A stretch of DNA of 40,568 bases from Nocardioides sp. (GTDB lineage Bacteria > Actinomycetota > Actinomycetes > Propionibacteriales > Nocardioidaceae), in assembly GCA_026786275.1 (NCBI GenBank), contig JAJAYJ010000056.1:1-40568 (forward strand), written 5' to 3'. The notes below the pieces were generated by a model, which had not been told where the DNA came from, did no database searches, and was given only the letters and a program-made list of their open reading frames with translations. The translations under genes were made by a program, and so were the position numbers. Positions within the stretch are counted from its first letter, which is position 1. Every line of letters begins with the position of its first letter. Below, in pieces: positions 4,579 through 40,564 of this stretch.

Positions 4579-5021
4579 ACGTTCCCCTGTGACCGGTGCT
4601 CGACGACGTACCCCAGCCGCTGCAGTGCCTCGGCATTGCGCCACGTCAGCACCGGGTCCTGCAGCGGCTTGGGCAGCAGCGCCCCAGGTCCGCTGACCGC
4701 CTGTTCCTGCATCTCGATCTGGGTGCCGGCCCCGTGCGGGGTCATCCGCAGCACGACCTCGGCGGCCCCGAGCGGCCAGCCCCTGGCGCGCAGCCGCAGC
4801 AGCGTGAGGGCCCGCACCTCGAGCACCTCGGTCGTGTCGTCGAGCATCACCGGCCAGCTGCCCACCGAGTGGTGCAGGCGCGAGCCCACGGCGGGCCAGG
4901 TGTCGTCGACCTCCCGCATCCGGGTGGCACCGACCACCCACAGCGGGTAGAGCCAGCCGTCGCAGAGCACCTCCCAGACCTGCTCGGGCGTGGCGGCGAC
5001 GGTACGGGTGTTGGTGCTCAC
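4575..5021 (-). CDS. SRPBCC family protein (polyketide cyclase/START-like)
   Basis: A 148-residue single-domain protein with the START/Bet v1-like SRPBCC pattern. It opens with a first strand and the ATPEQVWEVLCDGWLYPLWV segment, has a middle W/L-rich barrel strand region (GSRLHHSVGSWPVML), and ends in a long C-terminal helix containing LTWRNAEALQRL. The fold forms a deep hydrophobic pocket for lipids or aromatic ligands. The first gene of a two-gene operon, it overlaps the flavoprotein gene by GTGA at 4575-4578. This pairing suggests that the SRPBCC protein binds or delivers the hydrophobic substrate or product of the flavoprotein (inference). A SigB-type promoter match lies at 5056-5080, and the ATG is preceded by a GGAGCC-like Shine-Dalgarno sequence. 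Confidence 0.85.
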   Translation of the reverse strand: MSTNTRTVAATPEQVWEVLCDGWLYPLWVVGATRMREVDDTWPAVGSRLHHSVGSWPVMLDDTTEVLEVRALTLLRLRARGWPLGAAEVVLRMTPHGAGTQIEMQEQAVSGPGALLPKPLQDPVLTWRNAEALQRLGYVVEHRSQGNV

Positions 5022-5055
5022 GGGGGGCTCCTCGGGTCGGCGGACGGGCGGACCG

Positions 5056-5080
5056 GTACCCAGAGGAATCTCTCACATCC
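5056..5080 (-). promoter_or_regulatory. SigB-type promoter candidate for SRPBCC/flavoprotein operon
   Basis: On the minus strand GGAT (5080-5077), a 15-base spacer and GGGTAC (5061-5056) match GNNT-N14-16-GGGTAY, the consensus described for Streptomyces SigB-type sigma factors. The predicted transcription start lies about 25-30 bases before the ATG at 5021. The window encodes a sigma factor of this family at 13283-14134, and two similar sites lie near it. Confidence 0.5.
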
Positions 5081-5122
5081 CCCCGGGCCAGCCCTGGCGT
5101 TCCCCACCCCGGTGGGGCCGGA

Positions 5123-6064
5123 TCAGGACCCGGTCTCCTCCGCGGCCTTGAGCTCGACCTCTGCCGTGGCCTGGATGAGGGCGAGCAGTTCCGGGTCGAG
5201 ACCGGGGCTGAACTCCTCCTTGCGCTCGGGCGAGATGGTGATCGGCACCCCCTCGGGCATGATCGCGGTGCTCAGCTCGGTGCCGTCGTTGGACGGGGAG
5301 GCGCCACGGTAGAGCTTGGCGGCCTGGCTCGTCTGCTCGGGGTTGAAGGTGTACTGAATGCTCTGAAGACCCCGGTCCAGCAGCTTCTTGACCTCGGGGA
5401 ACTGCTCGGCGTTGGTCTTCGGGATGGGCAGCAGCGGACCCCAGTTGACGCCCAGCGACTCGAGGGCCTTGGCGTAGGCGTTCTCGTGCGCCTGGTCGCG
5501 GACGATGAGGTAGGCCACGGTCGATCGCGCCGCCTTGTTGGCGGTCATCTCGTAGATCCGGCACTTCTGCAGGCGCCCTGTGGACTCCAGCATCAGGTTG
5601 TAGAGCAGGTCGAGCACGAGATTGCCGCTGTTGTACACGTAGGACCCGGACCATGGGTTGCCGGCGGCGTCGACGGGCAGCGCGCCCTGCGCCCCGACCA
5701 GGAAGTGGTGGATGTTGCCTTGGTCCAGGGCGATCTTGAGCGGGGTAGCGCCCGTGGCGCCGGGCTGGTCGATCGGGTCGGCTTTCTCGCCGTGGTATTC
5801 CGGGGAGCCGTCGAGCAGGCGCGAGATGGTCGTGCCGATGAGCTCGACGTGGCCGATCTCCTCGGTGCCGATGCCCTGGAGCAGGTCCTTGTACGGCTTC
5901 GAGGACGCATCGCCACGGAAGTTCATGGACTGGAAGAGGTACTGCATCATCGTGCGCATCTCGCCGAACTGACCGCCCAGACCTTCCTGCAGCGCGTTGG
6001 CCGCGGCGGGGTCGGGCTCGTCGATCGCGATCTCGTTGATGAGCTGTTCGGTGTACAGGTACAT
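5123..6064 (-). CDS. Manganese catalase
   Basis: A 313-residue non-haem catalase that disproportionates hydrogen peroxide at a dimanganese centre in the cytoplasm. The ferritin-like four-helix core carries the expected metal ligands: Glu35 in GQFGEMRTMM, Glu69 and His72 in GTEEIGHVEL, Glu160 in YNLMLES, and His193 in DQAHENAYAKAL. The N-terminus (MYLYTEQLINEI) is the usual one for the family. The ATG at 6064 has a GAAGGA ribosome-binding site seven bases upstream; an in-frame extension to 7021 runs antisense through other genes and is rejected. It shares a 177-base divergent spacer with the SRPBCC gene at 6242. Peroxide defence fits the stress theme of the neighbourhood. I saw no clear sigma site on its side of the spacer. 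Confidence 0.95.
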   Translation of the reverse strand: MYLYTEQLINEIAIDEPDPAAANALQEGLGGQFGEMRTMMQYLFQSMNFRGDASSKPYKDLLQGIGTEEIGHVELIGTTISRLLDGSPEYHGEKADPIDQPGATGATPLKIALDQGNIHHFLVGAQGALPVDAAGNPWSGSYVYNSGNLVLDLLYNLMLESTGRLQKCRIYEMTANKAARSTVAYLIVRDQAHENAYAKALESLGVNWGPLLPIPKTNAEQFPEVKKLLDRGLQSIQYTFNPEQTSQAAKLYRGASPSNDGTELSTAIMPEGVPITISPERKEEFSPGLDPELLALIQATAEVELKAAEETGS

Positions 6065-6229
6065 GGCGTGGTCCTTCGGTGGGCATGGGCGTACGGTCGA
6101 CGACCGATCGAGCCAAGCACGGGGGAGGGGGCGCCGGACCCACCCGTGCAGGTTGACGTCGAGGCCGTGCTCTCCTGGCCGGTCGCATACTCCGCACCTT
6201 GGGATGAGCCCGATGCCTGCGCGTGTACC

Positions 6230-6235
6230 TAGCGT
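6230..6235 (+). promoter_or_regulatory. -10 element of a leaderless promoter
   Basis: TAGCGT fits the actinobacterial TANNNT -10 pattern and ends six bases before the ATG at 6242, so transcription should begin at or next to the start codon. The gene has no Shine-Dalgarno sequence, consistent with a leaderless transcript. No convincing -35 was found. Confidence 0.4.
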
Positions 6236-6241
6236 CGGGGC

Positions 6242-6688
6242 ATGACCACCGTCAGCCGCACCTTCACCGTCACGCCCAGCCCCGCCGTCGTCATCGACTA
6301 CCTCAAGGACTTCACCAACGCCGAGGAGTGGGACCCCGGGACTGAGAAGTGCTCCCGCAACGACAGCGGTCCCGTCGTCGTCGGGTCGAGCTTCCACAAC
6401 GTCTCGAAGATCGCCGGGGTCAGCACCGAGCTGACCTACACCCTCGAGAAGCTGACCCACGACACCATCGTGCTCGTCGGCAAGAACGAGACGGCAACGT
6501 CCACCGACACGATGACCGTCGTGCCCGACCCCGACAACGCCTCCGGCAGTCAGGTGACTTACGAGGCCGTCATCGAGATGAGCGGCGCGGCCAAGCTCGC
6601 TGCCCCCCTCGTCAAGCTCGTGTTCGAGAAGATCGGTTCCGACACCGAGGACGAGATGACCCAGGCGCTGAACCGTCTGCACGGCTGA
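6242..6688 (+). CDS. SRPBCC family protein
   Basis: A 148-residue START/SRPBCC-type protein, distinct from the one at 4575. It shows the typical opening strand and helix (TVSRTFTVTPSPAVVIDYL) followed by the FTNAEEWDPGTEKC segment that lines the cavity. A central run of strands follows, with ELTYTLEKL and TVVPDP repeats, and it ends with a long C-terminal helix (GSDTEDEMTQALNRL). Actinobacterial proteins of this type are often annotated as polyketide cyclase/dehydrase and bind lipophilic ligands; the ligand here is unknown. It appears monocistronic: its ATG follows a -10-like TAGCGT by six bases and a hairpin terminator follows at 6732-6759. The divergent manganese catalase suggests a stress context, but no functional link is visible. 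Confidence 0.87.
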   Translation: MTTVSRTFTVTPSPAVVIDYLKDFTNAEEWDPGTEKCSRNDSGPVVVGSSFHNVSKIAGVSTELTYTLEKLTHDTIVLVGKNETATSTDTMTVVPDPDNASGSQVTYEAVIEMSGAAKLAAPLVKLVFEKIGSDTEDEMTQALNRLHG

Positions 6689-6731
6689 GCGTGGCGCGCC
6701 CGCGCCGACCCTGATCGCCGAGACGACACCG

Positions 6732-6759
6732 AGGGCCGCCCCCTTCCGGTGGCGGCCTT
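6732..6759 (+). terminator. Hairpin terminator after SRPBCC gene
   Basis: GGCCGCC (6734-6740) and GGCGGCC (6751-6757) form a perfect 7-bp stem, extendable to 9 bp with one G-T pair, around a 10-base loop. It lies 44 bases after the stop codon. There is no T-run, as is common in high-GC actinobacteria. Confidence 0.55.
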
Positions 6760-6960
6760 CGTCAGGGCACGGGTACGACGTCACGCGAAGATTGACGTCG
6801 GCGTCCCGGTGGGACGTCGAGATCTCGATCGTGCGTGGGCTGGCCTCCTCGGGCACCGGCGACCAGGAGCACCCCGCCCTCGTAGGCGGCGGCGATTCGG
6901 TGGTGTTCAGCCGCGGTGCGCCGGCGTCGCCGGCCGCCCTGCGCACGACCGAACCGGACC

Positions 6961-6986
6961 GCATGAACCCCGGTGCCCGCGGGTAC
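6961..6986 (+). promoter_or_regulatory. SigB-type promoter candidate for yihY-like gene
   Basis: GCAT (6961-6964), a 16-base spacer and GGGTAC (6981-6986) match GNNT-N14-16-GGGTAY. The -10 ends eight bases before the ATG at 6995, so the transcript would be leaderless or nearly so. Confidence 0.45.
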
Positions 6987-6994
6987 CGCACCTG

Positions 6995-8074
6995 ATGAGC
7001 CGGACATCCCACGACCCGCACGACACCCGGACCACCCGGGACGACAGGCCGGGCGAGGACATCGACCCGGACGCCGGCAAGGTGGACTCACCCACCGACC
7101 TGAGTAGACGCTCGTGGGCCTACGTGGCGCGCAAGACGGCCCGGGAGTTCCTGGACGACCAGTGCACCGACCTCGCGGCCGCGCTGACCTACTACGCGGT
7201 GCTGGCCCTCTTCCCGGCCGCGATCGCGCTGACCTCGCTGCTCGGTCTGGTGGGCCAAGGTGGCTCGGCGGTACGAACGCTGCTCGAGGTCGTGAGCGAC
7301 GTGGGTGGCGCCTCCGTCGTCGACAGCGTGCGGCAGCCGCTCCTGGACCTGAGCGGGTCGCAGGGCGCTGGGGTGGCCCTGGTCGGGGGCCTGCTCGGAG
7401 CCCTCTGGTCGGCCAGCGGATACGTCGGCGCCTTCGGCCGAGCCATGAACCGGGTCTACGAGATCCGGGAGGGACGGCCCATCTGGAAGCTGCGCCCGGC
7501 CATGCTGCTGCTCACCGCCGTGCTCCTGGTCCTGGTGGCGCTCGTCGTGTTCGCCCTGGTCGTTACCGGCCCCGTGGCCCAATCGGTGGGCGACGTCATC
7601 GGTCTGGGGTCCACCGCCGTCCTGGTCTGGAACATCGCCAAGTGGCCGGTCCTGCTGGTCGTGGTCGTGGTGATCGTGGCCCTGCTCTACTACGCCACCC
7701 CCAACGTGAAGCAGCCCAAGCTCCGCTGGGTCAGTGTCGGCGCCGTGCTGGCCATCGTGACCTGGATCCTGCTGTCGGTCGGCTTCGGCTTCTACGTCGC
7801 CAACGTCTCCTCCTACGACAAGACCTACGGCGCCCTCGGTGGTGTGATCGTCTTCCTGCTCTGGCTGTGGCTCACCAACCTCGCGCTGCTCCTCGGGGCC
7901 GAGCTGGACGCCGAGCTGGAACGGGGTCGCCAACTGCAGTCGGGCATCGCGGCCGAGCGCGACCTGCAGCTGCCGCCGCGCGACGAGAGCGGCATCGAGA
8001 AAGCGGAGCTCACAGAACGAGAGGACCAGCGCCGCGGCCGAGAGATCCGCGAGCAGCACCCGCACGACGCCTGA
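6995..8074 (+). CDS. YihY/virulence factor BrkB family membrane protein
   Basis: A 359-residue inner-membrane protein of the YihY/BrkB family. A charged, His/Asp-rich N-terminus of about 50 residues precedes the family opening (SWAYVARKTAREFLDDQCTD) and the first membrane segment with LAAALTYYAVLALFPAAIAL, a family hallmark. Further hydrophobic segments follow, including GVALVGGLLGALWSASGYVG, the MLLLTAVLLVLVALVVFALV helix, and a C-terminal GVIVFLLWLWLTNLALLLGAELDAELER signature region. The C-terminal 40 residues are charged and cytoplasmic. The family is often mislabelled ribonuclease BN; its molecular function is not established. ATG 6995 is chosen because the upstream in-frame sequence is not protein-like and a SigB-type promoter ends eight bases before it. 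Confidence 0.92.
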   Translation: MSRTSHDPHDTRTTRDDRPGEDIDPDAGKVDSPTDLSRRSWAYVARKTAREFLDDQCTDLAAALTYYAVLALFPAAIALTSLLGLVGQGGSAVRTLLEVVSDVGGASVVDSVRQPLLDLSGSQGAGVALVGGLLGALWSASGYVGAFGRAMNRVYEIREGRPIWKLRPAMLLLTAVLLVLVALVVFALVVTGPVAQSVGDVIGLGSTAVLVWNIAKWPVLLVVVVVIVALLYYATPNVKQPKLRWVSVGAVLAIVTWILLSVGFGFYVANVSSYDKTYGALGGVIVFLLWLWLTNLALLLGAELDAELERGRQLQSGIAAERDLQLPPRDESGIEKAELTEREDQRRGREIREQHPHDA

Positions 8075-21475: not shown

Positions 21476-22099
21476 TCAGCGGTGTGCGGCGCGGTCCACC
21501 TTGTCGTGGTAGCGGTGACCGATGATCCCGCCCAGCACGGCTCCGAGGAGCGTGAGCACGAGCACGGCCGCGGCCGTGATCAGTCCGCCGATGCCGGCCT
21601 CGTCGAGCGAGACCGGCAGACGCGGCAGGTCGACCCGGTCCAGGATGTTGTACTCCGATCCGAAGAGGGCGCCCAGACCCAGGGCGACCACCGTCACCAG
21701 CAGGCCGAGGACCCACACGCCGACGCCCTGACGGGCGCCGTCGAAGCGCGACATCCGGCCGGCGACGTACCCGCCGGTGTAGTAGGCCAGGGTCAGCACG
21801 ACGAGCAGGACCACGCCCGCGGCGATGCCGATGGTTCCGGCGGAGCGTTCTGCGTCGTCCTGGGTCACCGAGACCTGGGAACCGACGGCGGCCAGGACCG
21901 CACCGACGATGCTGGTGAGCAGGATCGCGACGGCGATCGCCACCAGCCAGCCGAAGAACGCGGCCCCGATGTTGAGCCCACCGAAGCGGTCCCGGGCCTC
22001 GCTGTCGTCGTGGAGCACGGGGCCGCTGTCGTCGTGGAGCACGGGGCCGTTGGTGGCCTGGTGATCGGTTGCCTCGTGATCGGGGTGTCGTCGAGCCAT
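21476..22099 (-). CDS. Hypothetical four-helix membrane protein
   Basis: A 207-residue integral membrane protein. A His/Asp-rich hydrophilic N-terminus contains an 8-residue duplication (GPVLHDDS twice, from a 24-base repeat near 22005-22055). Four hydrophobic segments follow: AAFFGWLVAIAVAILLTSIV, TIGIAAGVVLLVVLTLAYYT, GVWVLGLLVTVVALGLGALF and GLITAAAVLVLTLLGAVLGG. The loop GGYVAGRMSRFDGARQG recurs in actinobacterial membrane proteins of unknown function. GAGGAGG lies nine bases before ATG 22099. It sits next to the mechanosensitive channel gene on the same strand, with a 92-base gap. Confidence 0.82.
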   Translation of the reverse strand: MARRHPDHEATDHQATNGPVLHDDSGPVLHDDSEARDRFGGLNIGAAFFGWLVAIAVAILLTSIVGAVLAAVGSQVSVTQDDAERSAGTIGIAAGVVLLVVLTLAYYTGGYVAGRMSRFDGARQGVGVWVLGLLVTVVALGLGALFGSEYNILDRVDLPRLPVSLDEAGIGGLITAAAVLVLTLLGAVLGGIIGHRYHDKVDRAAHR

Positions 22100-22191
22100 G
22101 GTGTGACCTCCTCAGGTCGGGCGTGATGTGCCGTACAGCAGGTTAGGGCCTGCGTCGGTGCTGCCTCGGTACTGCGTCAGTCGGTGGTGGC

Positions 22192-22926
22192 TCAGTACTG
22201 GCTGCGGGCCTGGTCGGCCTGGACCTGGGCCCTGTCCGAGCCGGTGGCCAGGTCGTCCTTGACCTGGTCCTTGTGCTGCTGGCCCTTGCGGTAGGCGTCC
22301 TCCAGGAGGCGCTCGGCGACGCCGCGGCCGCCCAGGCCGAAGGCGAGCGCCAGGCCGAGGGCGAGAGCGCCCATGGTGGCCGCGAAGGCGATCGTGACGA
22401 TCTCCTCGGCGATCTTGAGCTGGTTGAGGATCATGAACATGGCGATGACCATGACGATGGCCGGCACGACGGTGGCGACGATCTTGCCGGTCGGGGTGTC
22501 CCCCATGACCTGGGTGACGCCGGGGGCGATGGCGCCGGCCACGAGGGCCGCGGCGACGAAGATGACGATGGCGACGATCACGTTGGGCAGGTAGGCCAGC
22601 ACCTGGTTCATGAACGTGGTGACGGCCGGGATCTTGAGGGCGCCGATGGCGCTGGTCAGGAAGAACACGAAGATCAGGAAGAAGACGACCTTCGCGATGC
22701 CCTTGCTGGGGCTGGCGCCGGGCAGCACCTTCTCGACGTACCGGTTGGCGTCGGAGTCGTGCAGGTGCCGGTCGAGGCCGACCTTCTGCAGGAGCTTGGT
22801 GACGATCCCGGCCACGACCTTCGCGACGACGTAGCCGACAAGCAGGATGACGAGGAAGGCGAGCAGGTTCGGCAGGAACCCGATCGCGGTGTCCAGGGCG
22901 TTACGGAAGCTGTCTTGGATGCGCAT
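22192..22926 (-). CDS. Small mechanosensitive ion channel-like protein (TM-helix repeat family)
   Basis: A 244-residue membrane protein of the MscS-related TM-helix/CmpX-like family. The opening helix FLPNLLAFLVILLVGYVVAK and a second similar unit FMNQVLAYLPNVIVAIVIFV show the duplicated family repeat. A further membrane helix and a glycine-rich pore-like segment (FAATMGALALGLALAFGLGG) come before a charged cytoplasmic tail. It lacks the large C-terminal beta domain of MscS, as expected for this family. These proteins are linked to osmotic or membrane-tension responses. ATG 22926 has no Shine-Dalgarno sequence. A TACGCT -10-like hexamer 13 bases upstream suggests a very short leader. An inverted repeat upstream is a candidate TetR operator. 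Confidence 0.88.
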   Translation of the reverse strand: MRIQDSFRNALDTAIGFLPNLLAFLVILLVGYVVAKVVAGIVTKLLQKVGLDRHLHDSDANRYVEKVLPGASPSKGIAKVVFFLIFVFFLTSAIGALKIPAVTTFMNQVLAYLPNVIVAIVIFVAAALVAGAIAPGVTQVMGDTPTGKIVATVVPAIVMVIAMFMILNQLKIAEEIVTIAFAATMGALALGLALAFGLGGRGVAERLLEDAYRKGQQHKDQVKDDLATGSDRAQVQADQARSQY

Positions 22927-22935
22927 AAGAGGAAC

Positions 22936-22982
22936 TTACAGCGTAAATTCTCACGGGAATTACCCCCCTAACGGTGTAATTC
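22936..22982. promoter_or_regulatory. Candidate TetR operator/promoter between tetR and channel gene
   Basis: In a 59-base AT-rich spacer, GAATTAC (22957-22963) and GTAATTC (22976-22982) form perfect 7-bp arms 12 bases apart. A smaller palindrome TTAC-AGC-GTAA lies at 22936-22946. On the minus strand TACGCT overlaps the small palindrome and could be the -10 of the channel gene. Repression by the adjacent TetR protein is an inference. Confidence 0.5.
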
Positions 22983-22985
22983 GGA

Positions 22986-23741
22986 TCAGTCGAGGTGCTC
23001 GACGCGGAGCCGGGCGATGCGGTCCAGCAGGTTCTCCAGCGACTCCTCGAACTCGACGACCGCGCGGTCCTCGGCGAGCTGGTCGGCGAGCCGGGCCACG
23101 GTCGGGAATTCGGCCAGCTCGCTCGCCTGGACATCGGGTTCCGGGTGGGTGGCCGTCTCGCTCACGTCGAGAGGGCCCACGTCGGCGCCCAGCGCCGAGA
23201 CCTCAAGGAGCAGGTGGCCGAGCAGGAAGCTGGTGAAGGCGCGGTACGCAGCGACGGCGCCCTCGTCGTTGAAGCCCTCGGCCTCGAGGCCCTGCAGGAA
23301 CATCTCCACCCAGTCGAGGCTGCGCAGCGGGGGCCGCAGCCACGGTGCGGCGGGGGGCCGGGACGCCACCAGCGGGAACGCCCTGGGATGGGCCAGGGCC
23401 ATCCGCCGGATGCCGTGCGCGAGTCGCTGCAGAAAGTCCTGCCACCCGTCGCGGGGGGTGTCCAGGACCTCACGGTCGCGCCGCATGTCGGACACGATGT
23501 GGTCGACCACGGCGTCGAGCAGCTCCTCGCGTCCCGGCACGTAGCGGTAGAGCGACATCGCCTCGACCCCGAGGGCCTTCCCGAGCCGGCGCATCGTGAG
23601 GCCCGGGAGGCCGAACTCCTCGATGTAGGCCACGGCGGTGGAGACGATCAGCTCCTGGCTGAGCGACGCCCGAGCCGCCGGCTTCCGGCGACCGACCGAG
23701 GCGGCGTCCGGGCCGACCTCGATGGATGTCCTGGGTCCCAT
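22986..23741 (-). CDS. TetR/AcrR family transcriptional regulator
   Basis: A 251-residue repressor. After a basic N-terminus the TetR DNA-binding domain spans about residues 25-75 (LSQELIVSTAVAYIEEFGLP, then LTMRRLGKALGVEAMSLYRY and VPGREELLDAVVDHI). The GLTMRRLGKALGVEAMSLYRYV part is the helix-turn-helix and matches TetR_C-type regulators. The C-terminal ligand domain is all-helical, with acidic stretches near the end. The ligand is unknown. ATG 23741 follows GGGAG at good spacing; the in-frame extension upstream is not protein-like. The channel gene lies 59 bases downstream on the same strand with operator-like repeats between, making it the likely target. Confidence 0.9.
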   Translation of the reverse strand: MGPRTSIEVGPDAASVGRRKPAARASLSQELIVSTAVAYIEEFGLPGLTMRRLGKALGVEAMSLYRYVPGREELLDAVVDHIVSDMRRDREVLDTPRDGWQDFLQRLAHGIRRMALAHPRAFPLVASRPPAAPWLRPPLRSLDWVEMFLQGLEAEGFNDEGAVAAYRAFTSFLLGHLLLEVSALGADVGPLDVSETATHPEPDVQASELAEFPTVARLADQLAEDRAVVEFEESLENLLDRIARLRVEHLD

Positions 23742-34953: not shown

Positions 34954-35555
34954 TGGGCGTGGGGACCCGGGGCCTGGAGCCCGGCGCGTACGGCGCGCTG
35001 GCCGGCGCGGGCGCGGGTCTGGGCATCGCGCTGCTGCCCAGGGGGATGCGCTCGATCGGCCTGCGGCTGCCGTTGCCGGCCGAGGCGGTCGTGGTCGGAC
35101 TCGGGGTCCCGGTCGGTGGCTCGCCCACCCGGCCCCGAGGCGTGCTGGGTCGCAGCCTCGTCCTCGGGCTGGCGACCGGTGCCCGCAGCACCCTCGCCCT
35201 GGTGCCGCCGGCCCTCGGCTCGGGCCGCACCGGGGTCGCCGTCGCCGTCGCCGGTCTGGTGGTGACGGAGCTGACGGTCGACAAGCTGCCCACGACGCCC
35301 AGCCGGCTGACCCGGGCCCCGCTGCTGGGCCGGCTCGTCCTGGGCGCGGTCGGTGGGGCGTCGCTGGCCCGTCAGCGCTCGCTCGGTGTCGCGGGTCCCG
35401 CCGTGGCCGGTGCTGTGGGGGCCGCCGTCGGCTCCCTGGCCGGCGCAAGGATGCGCGAGGTCGCCGCCGCCCGGGGCTGGACCTGGCAGGCCGCGGCGCT
35501 CGAGGACGGGGCGGCCCTGGCCCTGATCGCCCTGGCCTACCGCGGCGTGCGCTGA
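34953..35555 (+). CDS. DUF4126-like membrane protein
   Basis: A 200-residue hydrophobic protein rich in Gly/Ala/Leu, with several membrane segments ([56 protein letters not shown]). The [16 protein letters not shown] segment and the [20 protein letters not shown] motif match the arrangement of DUF4126-type proteins, where a DKLP motif follows a membrane helix. Function is unknown. ATG 34953 overlaps the PfpI-family stop (TGATG). It is the last gene of the three-gene operon starting with DUF2945 and the last intact gene before the breakpoint at 35.94 kb. Confidence 0.78.
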
Positions 35556-35579
35556 GGTCGACCGACCGCGAGGCCCCGG

Positions 35580-35935
35580 CTACTCCGGCAGCGGCTCGGC
35601 GGGCAGCGGGCCCAGCAGGGCGAACGCGGCCAGGTGCGGCTCCACGTCGCCTGCCACCACCCAGGACCGCAGCTCTGCGGCGCTGCGACGGGTGGTCAGC
35701 GCCCGGGTCAGGTCGTACGACGACGCGGCCAGCACCACGCCCGGCTCGCCGTCGTGCGACTGCCAGGTCCAGTCGTCGGCCCGCAGCCGGACCGGGGCCA
35801 GCGGCTCGACCCGGGCGGCCCGCCGGCCGGCCAGGGTGTCGCGCACATGGTGCATGCCGAGGGTGTCGCGGGCCCCGGGCACGCCCAGGGCGCCGCGCAG
35901 GTCCTGCTCGTGGATGATCACGTCGGCGTCGACCA

Positions 35936-35938
<3 letters not shown>
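35580..35938 (-). pseudogene. Maleylpyruvate isomerase family mycothiol-dependent enzyme, C-terminal fragment
   Basis: The minus strand encodes about 118 residues that match the C-terminal part of mycothiol-dependent maleylpyruvate-isomerase-like (DinB-fold) enzymes. The fragment starts [20 protein letters not shown] and continues through [20 protein letters not shown] and [20 protein letters not shown]. The first helices, with the metal-binding histidine of the first motif, are missing. The open frame continues upstream only as the antisense of the helicase gene. The true N-terminal half is lost at about 35.94 kb and was not found elsewhere in the window. Mycothiol use is known for the family, not shown here. 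Confidence 0.75.
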
Positions 35939-37095
<1,157 letters not shown>

Positions 37096-37257
37096 CCTTC
37101 AGCGCCCGTCACTCTGTTGATCAGGGGCTGCAGCATCTCGCCCGGCCCTGGCGTGAGTCCCTCAACGCTTGGGTCGACAAGGCGCCAACCGAGATCAAAT
37201 GGACCTGCGCCAACATGCTTGCAGGGTGGTACCTCTGACCACCAGGCCCCGCGCCGC

Positions 37258-37301: not shown

Positions 37302-38078
37302 CTAGACCCGTTCAACCGGTTCGTCCACCAGGTAGTCATGGACGACTCGGCCCATCGAGTAGGTGAAGGTGACGTCGCCGTACAGGAGCGAGGTGATGTT
37401 CAGCGGATCGGTGGGTGCAAGTTTCTGCGCGGGATGCCCGTCCGGAAAGCTGAACGTGAGGTCGTCGACGGATGCATCGAACAACTTGACCGTGAACGGC
37501 AGAGGCAGCTCGATCAGCTGGCTCAGCGCGGCGTACCCGCCGAAAGGCTCCGGGATCTGACGGTGAGCGTAGTAGTTCAGGTGACCACCAAGGTCGCCGA
37601 CGTGATCGTCGGTGACGGAGGCGGTCAGGGTGATGACCTCGTGACCGTTCAGGTGCAGCGCGGAAGTCAGCTTCCCATCTTTCACCTCCGCCGTGCGAAC
37701 GCCCGGCATCGCGGGGATTCCGGCTCCTTCGCGCGCGTAGGCGGTCACTCGCGGGGAGCTCGTCCAGTAGTAGGCGAAGTATCGTCCGGGGATCGGGACT
37801 GTCCCATCGCCGGCAAGACTGTCGTGCCCATCGACCTCCACGGTGAGGTACGTCAGGGAGAAGGCTCCGAACCCACTGCTCTGGTCGGCTTCAATCTCGT
37901 ACATGTTCATCTGGACGGTGTTGTTGGCGTGGGGGCTCAACCCTGGGGGGAGCATCTCCTGGAGTGCTTCCCGCTCAGTCTCGTAGCCCACGATGCTCAT
38001 GCGTGCTTCACGGATGAGCTGGGGCGCTTCCGGTGCCCAGATCGTCGGGGGCATCCCTCGGTACGGAACCTTGTTCAT
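37302..38078 (-). CDS. Acetoacetate decarboxylase-like protein
   Basis: A 258-residue protein with the acetoacetate decarboxylase (ADC) fold pattern. It opens MNKVPYRGMPPTIWAPEAPQ, has EMLPPGLSPHANNTVQMNMY and GFGAFSLTYLTVEVDGHDSL in the middle, and PGRYFAYYWTSSPRVTAYAR before the usual active-site region. Classical ADC has a catalytic lysine in an EIxGxPKK motif; here the corresponding stretch reads GVRTAEVKDGKLTSALHLNG, so that motif is absent and decarboxylase activity is uncertain. Related proteins act as hydratases, aldolases or cyclases. ATG 38078 overlaps the stop of the truncated hydrolase gene upstream by four bases (ATGA), showing that they once formed an operon. Confidence 0.78.
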   Translation of the reverse strand: MNKVPYRGMPPTIWAPEAPQLIREARMSIVGYETEREALQEMLPPGLSPHANNTVQMNMYEIEADQSSGFGAFSLTYLTVEVDGHDSLAGDGTVPIPGRYFAYYWTSSPRVTAYAREGAGIPAMPGVRTAEVKDGKLTSALHLNGHEVITLTASVTDDHVGDLGGHLNYYAHRQIPEPFGGYAALSQLIELPLPFTVKLFDASVDDLTFSFPDGHPAQKLAPTDPLNITSLLYGDVTFTYSMGRVVHDYLVDEPVERV

Positions 38079-38371
38079 GTGAGCTGCCTTCCTTCTTCGT
38101 TAGTCAAGGCGTTCTCCCAGAGATCGACCGTCTGACGTGTCTGCTCGACCATCGGGTAGTGGCCGGCGGATGTGATCGCTACGAGGGTCGCGTTGCTGAG
38201 GGCCTGCACTGTTCCCTCCAGGTAGTCCTTCGTGACGAACGGGTCGCTGTCCCCGTACGCCAGCGTCACCGGGCCGCCGTAGAGGCTGAGGCTCTCGGCG
38301 AAGTCTGCAGCCGTCCAGTTCGCCCGGCAGCGGTCCCGCCCGCTGCCCCGTAGGACGTCCCGTAACGGAGG
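38075..38371 (-). pseudogene. Alpha/beta hydrolase, C-terminal fragment
   Basis: The minus strand encodes the C-terminal part of an alpha/beta hydrolase. YGGPVTLAYGDSDPFVTKDY contains the catalytic acid, and LVAITSAGHYPMVEQTRQTV the catalytic histidine with its GHYPMVEQ context. The frame stays open upstream through RDRCRANWTAADFAESLSL to about 38371 but then becomes unlike any hydrolase. The core with the nucleophile serine is missing, and only GTG 38269 offers a late start. Its TGA overlaps the start of the acetoacetate decarboxylase-like gene. I take it as a 5'-truncated relic. The 185 bases further upstream contain two TTGACAGCC copies and no gene that I can support. Confidence 0.6.
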
Positions 38372-39085: not shown

Positions 39086-40564
39086 TCAGCCGACGTGCCA
39101 GTGGTGGCGCACGAGGTCCGCGCGCGCGTCGTCGTTCTTGGACACCTTCTTCATGAGCGCGGCGTCGTCGTCGGCACGCAGCCGGTCAAGGACTGTGTCA
39201 ATCAGGTCGCTGGGGAAGATGCCATCAGCCTCGAACGATGCACGCTCGCGCTCGAGCGCGTCAGCGGACTCGGTGCGCGAGGATGGCAACTGTTCGAATT
39301 CGTCGTGGTCGGCGGTGTTGAGCCGCTCGGCCACGTCCAGGCTGTCAGGGGCGCTCAGTCCGTGTCTGGCTGCGACGGCCATGCCGGCCAGGAGCAAGTG
39401 GACGTCGGCCGAGCCGTCGGCAAGCCGGAGCTCGATCGTCTGGGGGTGGATGTTCGGCTCGCTGATCGGCTCGGAGGTGTCGGGGTTGGCGTGGGCGACC
39501 ATCCCGGGCAGCACGTCACCGGCCCAGGCCAGCGGCACGCGAACGAGCCCGGTGCGGTCGGTCTCGCCCCAGCAGATCCCTTCGGGCGACTCCTCGCCGT
39601 CGGTGAAGCGCAGGTAGGACGTCGGCACGGTGTTGCCGAATGCGGCCAGGGCCTTGGCCGCCGAGAGGTACCCAGAGATCAACCGTCGTCCGGTGTCGTT
39701 GATGCCCTCCTTGTCCACAATCGCGCTGGCGCCGTTGCGCACCAGCCTGCTGTGGAGGTGTAGTCCGCTACTCGCTCCATGGCTGCTGACTGAAGGGGCG
39801 AAGGTCACCTCCAGGCCATGGGCGTAGGCGACCTCGCGCACCACCCACTTGGCGATAACCAGGGAGTCCGCGGCCTGCTCCAACGGCACCGGCCAGAACT
39901 CGATCTCGTGCTGCACTAGCTGCCGCTCGTCCTGCAGGATGTTCCCGACCTCGCCGTGGGCGTACTTCAGCTTGATGCCCATCGCGGAGAGGTGGCCCAG
40001 GACCTGCTCGCGTACTTGCTGGCCCTTGGAGAAGGGCGCCGACTCCTGGTAGCCGTGCTCCTCTTCCACCGGGTAGACCCGTTCGGCCTGGTCTATGAGG
40101 TAGTACTCCAGCTCTCCGAACGCCTCAAGGACCATCCCCGTCTCTTGGGCGAGAACCTCACTGGCCCGGCGGACCACCTGCTCGCGCGCGTAGGGCAAGG
40201 GTTTGCCGTCCTCGCCGTAGAAGGAGCAGAGCACGTCGAGAGAGAGGCAATGTCCGAACGGGTTCAAGAAGGCCGTGCGGTGGCGCGGCACGATGTAGAC
40301 GTCGCTGGTCTGGGTCGCGATGCCCTCGAAGATGCTGGATCCGTCCACCCGCTCACCGCGCGTCAGCACCTCGAGGAGGTGCTCGCGCGAATCGATCGGG
40401 AACGCGATCGTCTTAAGACGTCCGTCACCCCCGACATAGCGGAGGTTCACTTGGCGCAGACCCAGCTGCTCTGCGGCCTGGACCAGATCGTTGCCCGTGA
40501 ACTCGGCTGCCGGCTTCTCGAGCAAGCGAACGATCGGGTGGGGTTCGAAGGTGTCGATGGGCAT
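39086..40564 (-). CDS. Divergent glutamine synthetase family protein
   Basis: A 492-residue protein with the glutamine synthetase architecture: a beta-grasp N-terminal domain (to about residue 105) and a catalytic domain. Recognisable motifs are EAFGELEYYLIDQ (metal-binding glutamate), QLVQHEIEFWPVPLEQAAD (second metal site) and VSSHGASSGLHLHSRLV (ATP/glutamate region). GNTVPTSYLRFTDGEESPEG replaces the usual NPTxxSYKRL, and TIELRLADGSADVHLLLAGM is the C-terminal signature. The substitutions put it outside typical GlnA-I; it could be a GS-III-like or gamma-glutamylamide-type ligase. A helical tail of about 90 residues follows the signature. ATG 40564 lies at the window edge, so a longer N-terminus is not excluded. 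Confidence 0.85.
   Translation of the reverse strand: MPIDTFEPHPIVRLLEKPAAEFTGNDLVQAAEQLGLRQVNLRYVGGDGRLKTIAFPIDSREHLLEVLTRGERVDGSSIFEGIATQTSDVYIVPRHRTAFLNPFGHCLSLDVLCSFYGEDGKPLPYAREQVVRRASEVLAQETGMVLEAFGELEYYLIDQAERVYPVEEEHGYQESAPFSKGQQVREQVLGHLSAMGIKLKYAHGEVGNILQDERQLVQHEIEFWPVPLEQAADSLVIAKWVVREVAYAHGLEVTFAPSVSSHGASSGLHLHSRLVRNGASAIVDKEGINDTGRRLISGYLSAAKALAAFGNTVPTSYLRFTDGEESPEGICWGETDRTGLVRVPLAWAGDVLPGMVAHANPDTSEPISEPNIHPQTIELRLADGSADVHLLLAGMAVAARHGLSAPDSLDVAERLNTADHDEFEQLPSSRTESADALERERASFEADGIFPSDLIDTVLDRLRADDDAALMKKVSKNDDARADLVRHHWHVG

Follow-up and report, generated by a model that had tools for sequence, protein, structure and literature searches.

A join between two truncated genes in a Nocardioides draft contig, and the low-G+C mosaic beside it: edge of a decaying accessory island or assembly chimera

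Two truncated genes at one join

The window analysed here is a stretch of 40,568 nucleotides that makes up the whole of contig C56 in a draft genome of Nocardioides sp. (2,717,492 bases in 189 contigs; completeness 77.62%, contamination 0.2%). Towards its right end lie two genes that point away from each other, a maleylpyruvate-isomerase-family (MPI) gene on the minus strand and a SNF2-type helicase gene on the plus strand, which a sequence-only reading of this DNA had described as both cut at about 35.94 kb. Comparison with relatives bears this out, C-terminal parts only being present, and it places the join at 35924/35926: homology of the MPI fragment to its two nearest relatives ends at 35924, and homology of the helicase starts at 35926. 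From the join to the contig end stretches what is called the right arm below, a mosaic of low G+C in which two more genes are truncated. The position of the join and the nature of the right arm are new here, as are the naming of the cassette from which the helicase came and the evidence against a simple frameshift.

The MPI fragment (35580 to 35924, minus strand) corresponds to the C-terminal half, ~114 residues, of a TIGR03083-like gene recognised by tblastn and NCBIfam, and its 5' half is missing. In tblastn, the minus-strand frame 35580-36074 is 61-62% identical over 114-115 residues to genes of the same genus (L066 and L060; E 2e-39 and 4e-39), in alignments that span frame residue 50 or 51 to the last residue, that is, base 35924 leftwards. 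The last residue in common is the D encoded at 35922-35924, and the window residues that precede it, AMVDA, are unlike the RPLN/RPLG of L066/L060. Three weaker matches (E 8e-12 to 8e-5) begin further right, at residues 46, 44 and 21 for L017, L021 and L025, and would count against a sharp MPI edge at 35924. The fragment scores 28.5 bits against TIGR03083 (E 1.7e-6, profile positions 104-202 of 202), below the curated cut-off of 50, as half a gene would be expected to, and a Pfam search of it at 0.001 gave no match. With its N-terminal half missing, this gene is unlikely to be functional.

The helicase fragment (35926 to 37095, plus strand) comprises, from its homology and a Helicase_C match, the last 389 residues and the stop codon of a SNF2-type defence helicase of ~1170 residues, the 5' two thirds of which are missing; 384 helicase residues are retained from 35941. 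The A-x-T-I-A of the helicase begins at window base 35926; in all 13 homologues compared the protein extends beyond it on the upstream side, through G-G-R, and these codons are missing from the window. In 10 of 17 loci the blastn match of the helicase region begins at 35922-35926, and in the other seven it begins later, up to 36011. Open frames of 1074-1220 residues occur in 16 of the 17 homologous loci, those of L070 and L072 extending to base 1 of their stretches; the helicase frame of L086, at 429 residues, also starts at a contig end. Identity to the window fragment reaches 85% over 382 residues in matches from Rhodococcus, Kribbella, Nocardioides, Mycobacterium and Promicromonospora (best 80 of 566). 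The Helicase_C match (E 1.7e-11) covers positions 60-106 of 110; the fragment would lack the first helicase lobe and is unlikely to be functional.

The sequence-only reading had also remarked that neither a tRNA nor a repeat marks the join and that the DNA to its right is less GC-rich. Both remarks hold: no tRNA was found in a scan of the window, no direct repeat family lies at the join among those listed by two scans (8 in one, 20 of 21 in the other), and G+C falls from 78.2% at 35001-36000 to 64.5% at 36001-37000. A 16-nt inverted match does touch the join (94%, 35913-35928 with 37595-37610), one of 14 such pairs in 5 kb, and is read as a chance match. An inversion between these two sites was considered and rejected, since the decarboxylase DNA of the right arm is continuous through 37595 in locus L186. 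By our reading of the alignments, the sequence common to both parents at the join amounts to anything from none to ~14 bases (35926-35939), which could belong to both if the residues encoded there are native to the isomerase. An 18-base word spanning the join has one exact occurrence in its own genome and matches four other places with two mismatches each, and a 34-base junction word was not found in viral contigs.

Contents of the right arm

From left to right, the right arm holds the helicase tail, ~16 codons of a third gene, an intact decarboxylase gene, a broken hydrolase gene and an intact synthetase gene. The ~16 codons (37098 to 37145, plus strand; tblastx and blastn) come from the start of a Swt1-like HEPN/DUF3320 gene of which the start codon is lost and the remainder is missing. 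Their tblastx match to the start of the third gene in L193 (69% over 16 residues; E 6e-4) is weak alone; the blastn match of the helicase region in L071 extends to 37147. In plasmid records, a large ATP-binding protein is also matched by the 44-residue peptide that follows the helicase (10 records; best E 2e-6, 52%). This match overlaps the first Swt1-like codons, and either gene may have supplied the rest of the peptide.

This arrangement recalls an actinobacterial cassette that consists of a type IIG restriction-methylase-like gene and a SNF2 helicase gene, sometimes with a Swt1-like HEPN/DUF3320 gene. With the query's own locus counted, the type IIG-like gene lies upstream of the helicase in 15 of 18 loci, with at least 1300 residues aligned; the L082 protein matches PADLOC REase_MTase_IIG at E 1.6e-232. 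A nearly whole Swt1-like gene follows the helicase in only 7 of the 18 loci, again counting the query's own (in L086 it is in two pieces), so this third gene is not a constant feature of the cassette. Directly upstream of the window helicase stands the MPI fragment, and the type IIG-like gene is absent. The window appears to hold a remnant of a mobile defence cassette, its helicase being a close relative of the one in the cassette.

Across several actinobacteria (L071, L073-L083 and L193; reference pair L082:3690-12285) the type IIG-like and helicase genes form a conserved pair, in which identity to the L082 proteins is 62-93% for the helicase and 57-75% for its partner, the helicase being the better conserved at every locus. 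Rhodococcus zopfii (L070:1-3322, a stretch with a contig end at its start) shows what looks like a deletion inside the cassette: residues 1093-1175 of the type IIG-like protein lead into the helicase at its residue 167 within a single open frame, and the third gene is down to residues 3-36.

The decarboxylase gene (37302 to 38078, minus strand; 62.7% G+C) is intact and belongs to the acetoacetate-decarboxylase family (PF06314, E 6.2e-18). At E 1e-20 it is matched in 2 of 341 genomes of the family of organisms, its own and G147 (a draft from a different genus, 6% contaminated), in which the corresponding gene on contig C164 is 86% identical in amino acids; among 72,556 plasmid records two matched (best 50%), neither of them a close carrier. 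Beside it lies the last third (~80 residues) of an alpha/beta-hydrolase gene (38084 to 38327, minus strand; tblastn to L186), which matches the C-terminal end of the hydrolase in L186 at 73% identity over 93 residues. The DNA of 37318-38327 is 81% identical to L186 and has no match to it past 38327, where the hydrolase gene ends in an abrupt second break. The L186 locus itself (G147:C164, 4719 bases) has 63.8% G+C against 68.7-72.1% in five other sampled contigs of G147, and represents either a catabolic island of accessory DNA or a contaminant in the draft. A genome of the same genus, G111, carries only the last 108 bases of a window-type decarboxylase gene (L037:1501-1608, 85% identical), cut beside other DNA.

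The glutamine-synthetase-family gene (39086 to 40564, minus strand; 66.3% G+C; PF00120, E 4.1e-43) is intact, with its start codon four bases from the contig end, and is 83% identical in amino acids and 85% in DNA to genes of two genomes of the same genus, G323 and G266. Genes of this family were found in 20 of the 341 family genomes, the window's own counted, and a plasmid search gave 275 records, all of them below 60% identity, and so no close carrier. In G266 the genes around the synthetase have 64-68% G+C, whereas six other 20-kb stretches of that genome have 70.5-71.7%. No integrase was found among the three right-arm proteins scanned.

Composition and the search for relatives

Composition was compared with a baseline of 20 stretches (266.8 kb) drawn from 19 of the 189 contigs of the same draft, after exclusion of L051, which is all N, ahead of counting. 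Of the 20 stretches, 16 were long enough for sliding 4.6-kb windows. A second baseline consists of 44 own segments of 4.6 kb from 15 contigs, contigs shorter than 4.6 kb giving none. At 65.7% G+C the right arm lies below the own segments (72.4 +/- 1.3%, minimum 69.1) and below every one of 1802 sliding windows, the lowest of which has 68.3%. Its tetranucleotide distance to the own mean is 0.092, against 0.017 +/- 0.005 (maximum 0.032) for the own segments and at most 0.033 for seven segments of the left arm. Low-G+C runs of similar length do exist in the same genome, although none sampled is as low: with overlapping runs merged, the run under 69% G+C in the window extends for 4.9 kb at 66.6%, and one in L057 for 4.8 kb at 68.6%. 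Two low-G+C stretches in the left arm, 4801-7000 (68.3%) and 21801-23600 (68.7%), are within the range of other own contigs.

The synthetase gene offers a second view of composition. In 16 relatives its G+C stays within ~2.5 points of that of the surrounding DNA, and the window gene falls below all 16 (67.9-74.8%). The gene thus tracks the DNA around it elsewhere, yet here it is 6 points under its own genome. A stretch under 69% G+C surrounds it in only one of the 16 relatives, which moved the odds towards a chimera.

No relative with the two arms adjacent was found in genome sets of 39 and 341, or among the matches listed in sets of 98 and 13. Genes of both arms are on one contig in G057, ~83 kb apart and in the opposite relative orientation. 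The G6PD/glycosidase pair of the left arm is in one piece in 10 of 13 genomes among the matches listed, and G323 and G266, the nearest genomes for the synthetase, show only weaker and scattered matches to it among those listed.

How the join may have arisen

The sequence-only reading had offered two explanations, an island border left by a deletion or an assembly chimera. This was the right pair of alternatives, and the second is nearly as likely as the first. The leading proposal, to which we give an even chance, is that the join marks the border of a genuine accessory island in the course of losing DNA. A mobile cassette and neighbouring low-G+C metabolic genes would have come to adjoin or enter an MPI-family gene, after which one end-joining deletion would have taken the 5' half of the MPI gene together with the 5' part of the helicase gene and whatever stood before the latter, the first cassette gene included. 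The ends would have been joined with little or no homology, leaving two 3' fragments that face away from each other, both presumably pseudogenes. End joining by Ku and LigD occurs in actinobacteria.

Several observations are consistent with a decaying island. Two more truncations within 2.4 kb of the join, the third gene reduced to ~16 codons and the hydrolase gene broken near 38327, show that the right arm is itself scarred, and so is decayed accessory DNA. The helicase belongs to a mobile cassette, which also occurs on a conjugative plasmid and appears decayed in at least one other genome (L070). Each of the two intact genes has a relative that lies in DNA of low G+C in a single genome (L186 and G266), and the presence of synthetase-family genes within the same family of organisms would fit an island as well. 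On our reading, ~14 common bases at most would be little for the usual graph misjoin. Against an island stand the lack of a relative with the arms adjacent in the sets searched, a composition more deviant than that of any own sample and lasting to the contig end, the synthetase G+C below that of all relatives measured with so few low-G+C surroundings among them, and the confinement of the decarboxylase, outside its own genome, to one contaminated draft of another genus. The truncations in the right arm are silent on which organism carries it.

The second explanation, to which we assign not quite an even chance, is a chimera of the assembly or library, in which C56 would be true chromosome up to 35924 and the last 4.6 kb would belong to a different organism, probably an actinobacterium of lower G+C in the same sample. 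The draft is fragmented and incomplete, the step in composition coincides with the join and persists to the contig end, and the tetranucleotide distance of the right arm is outside all own segments; the G+C of the synthetase, the scattered left-arm matches in G323 and G266, and the failure to find both arms adjacent in any relative searched also favour it. The higher identity of the synthetase to G266 and G323 was considered as a sign of a foreign donor and dropped: five pieces of one own core stretch are 78-84% identical to G266, near the 85% of the synthetase, so its kinship does not indicate another donor. Usual assembly k-mer sizes are 21 or more. In a report on metagenome assembly tests, chimeric contigs are described as common, and graph chimeras as arising where two species have a stretch in common (PMC8171044); the window resembles such contigs in its step of composition and gene content inside a draft contig, but differs in that little common sequence, and no stretch of graph-node length, is recognised at the join.

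It is very improbable that an element integrated site-specifically into the isomerase gene and that the join is its attachment site. The 15-base word at 35925-35939 could belong to both sides, as an attachment site would, but it is missing from 188 of 194 loci, the six carriers being stretches of contig C56, the junction lies inside the helicase coding sequence and not at the end of an element, and the right-arm proteins scanned include no integrase. That both genes are whole and appear cut through local sequencing errors, which the sequence-only reading had named as an outcome that would overturn it, can practically be dismissed, as no point in its favour was found and searches for the missing parts gave no credible match: at E 10 the N-terminal two thirds of the helicase (773 residues of L082) matched nothing in the own genome, with a query that had no positive control of its own while the C-terminal query matched, and an MPI relative matched the known C-terminal half and one 19-residue segment (E 0.025), nothing else. 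Because the genome is 77.6% complete, absence of these parts from it is weak evidence.

The last 4.6 kb of contig C56 should not be taken as safe gene content of the organism. A mobile defence cassette is recognisable here from its decayed remains; if the decaying island is real, it is another defence island that erodes without a visible recombinase. It is a long shot that nearly blunt joins of this kind, free of repeats and recombinases, may be the usual route by which actinobacterial mobile defence cassettes decay, leaving helicase 3' footprints that could be counted.

Relation to known systems

The component parts are all of known kinds. Of the marks of a genomic island, the right arm displays a deviant composition, as a chimera would too; an integrase is missing from the three right-arm proteins scanned, the window has no tRNA, the repeat scans showed no long flanking repeat, and the right border would lie beyond the contig end. 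In the NCBIfam and PADLOC libraries, the fragment and a complete homologue match DISARM DrmD, BrxH and HKD+Snf2 helicases best. The NCBIfam scores fall far short of the curated cut-offs, with 61.5 bits for the fragment and 143.4 bits for the L082 helicase against 610 for DISARM DrmD (NF038317), and judged by these scores the window helicase is a relative of DrmD and not DrmD itself. The closest parallel is the cassette of the conjugative plasmid pTC1 of Paenarthrobacter aurescens (CP000475). The window differs from that cassette in its losses, since the first gene is absent, the helicase is down to one third and almost nothing is left of the third gene; what it keeps is a helicase tail to which the pTC1 helicase is 84.5% identical in amino acids and which, as in cassettes of the pTC1 type, is followed by the first codons of the third gene.
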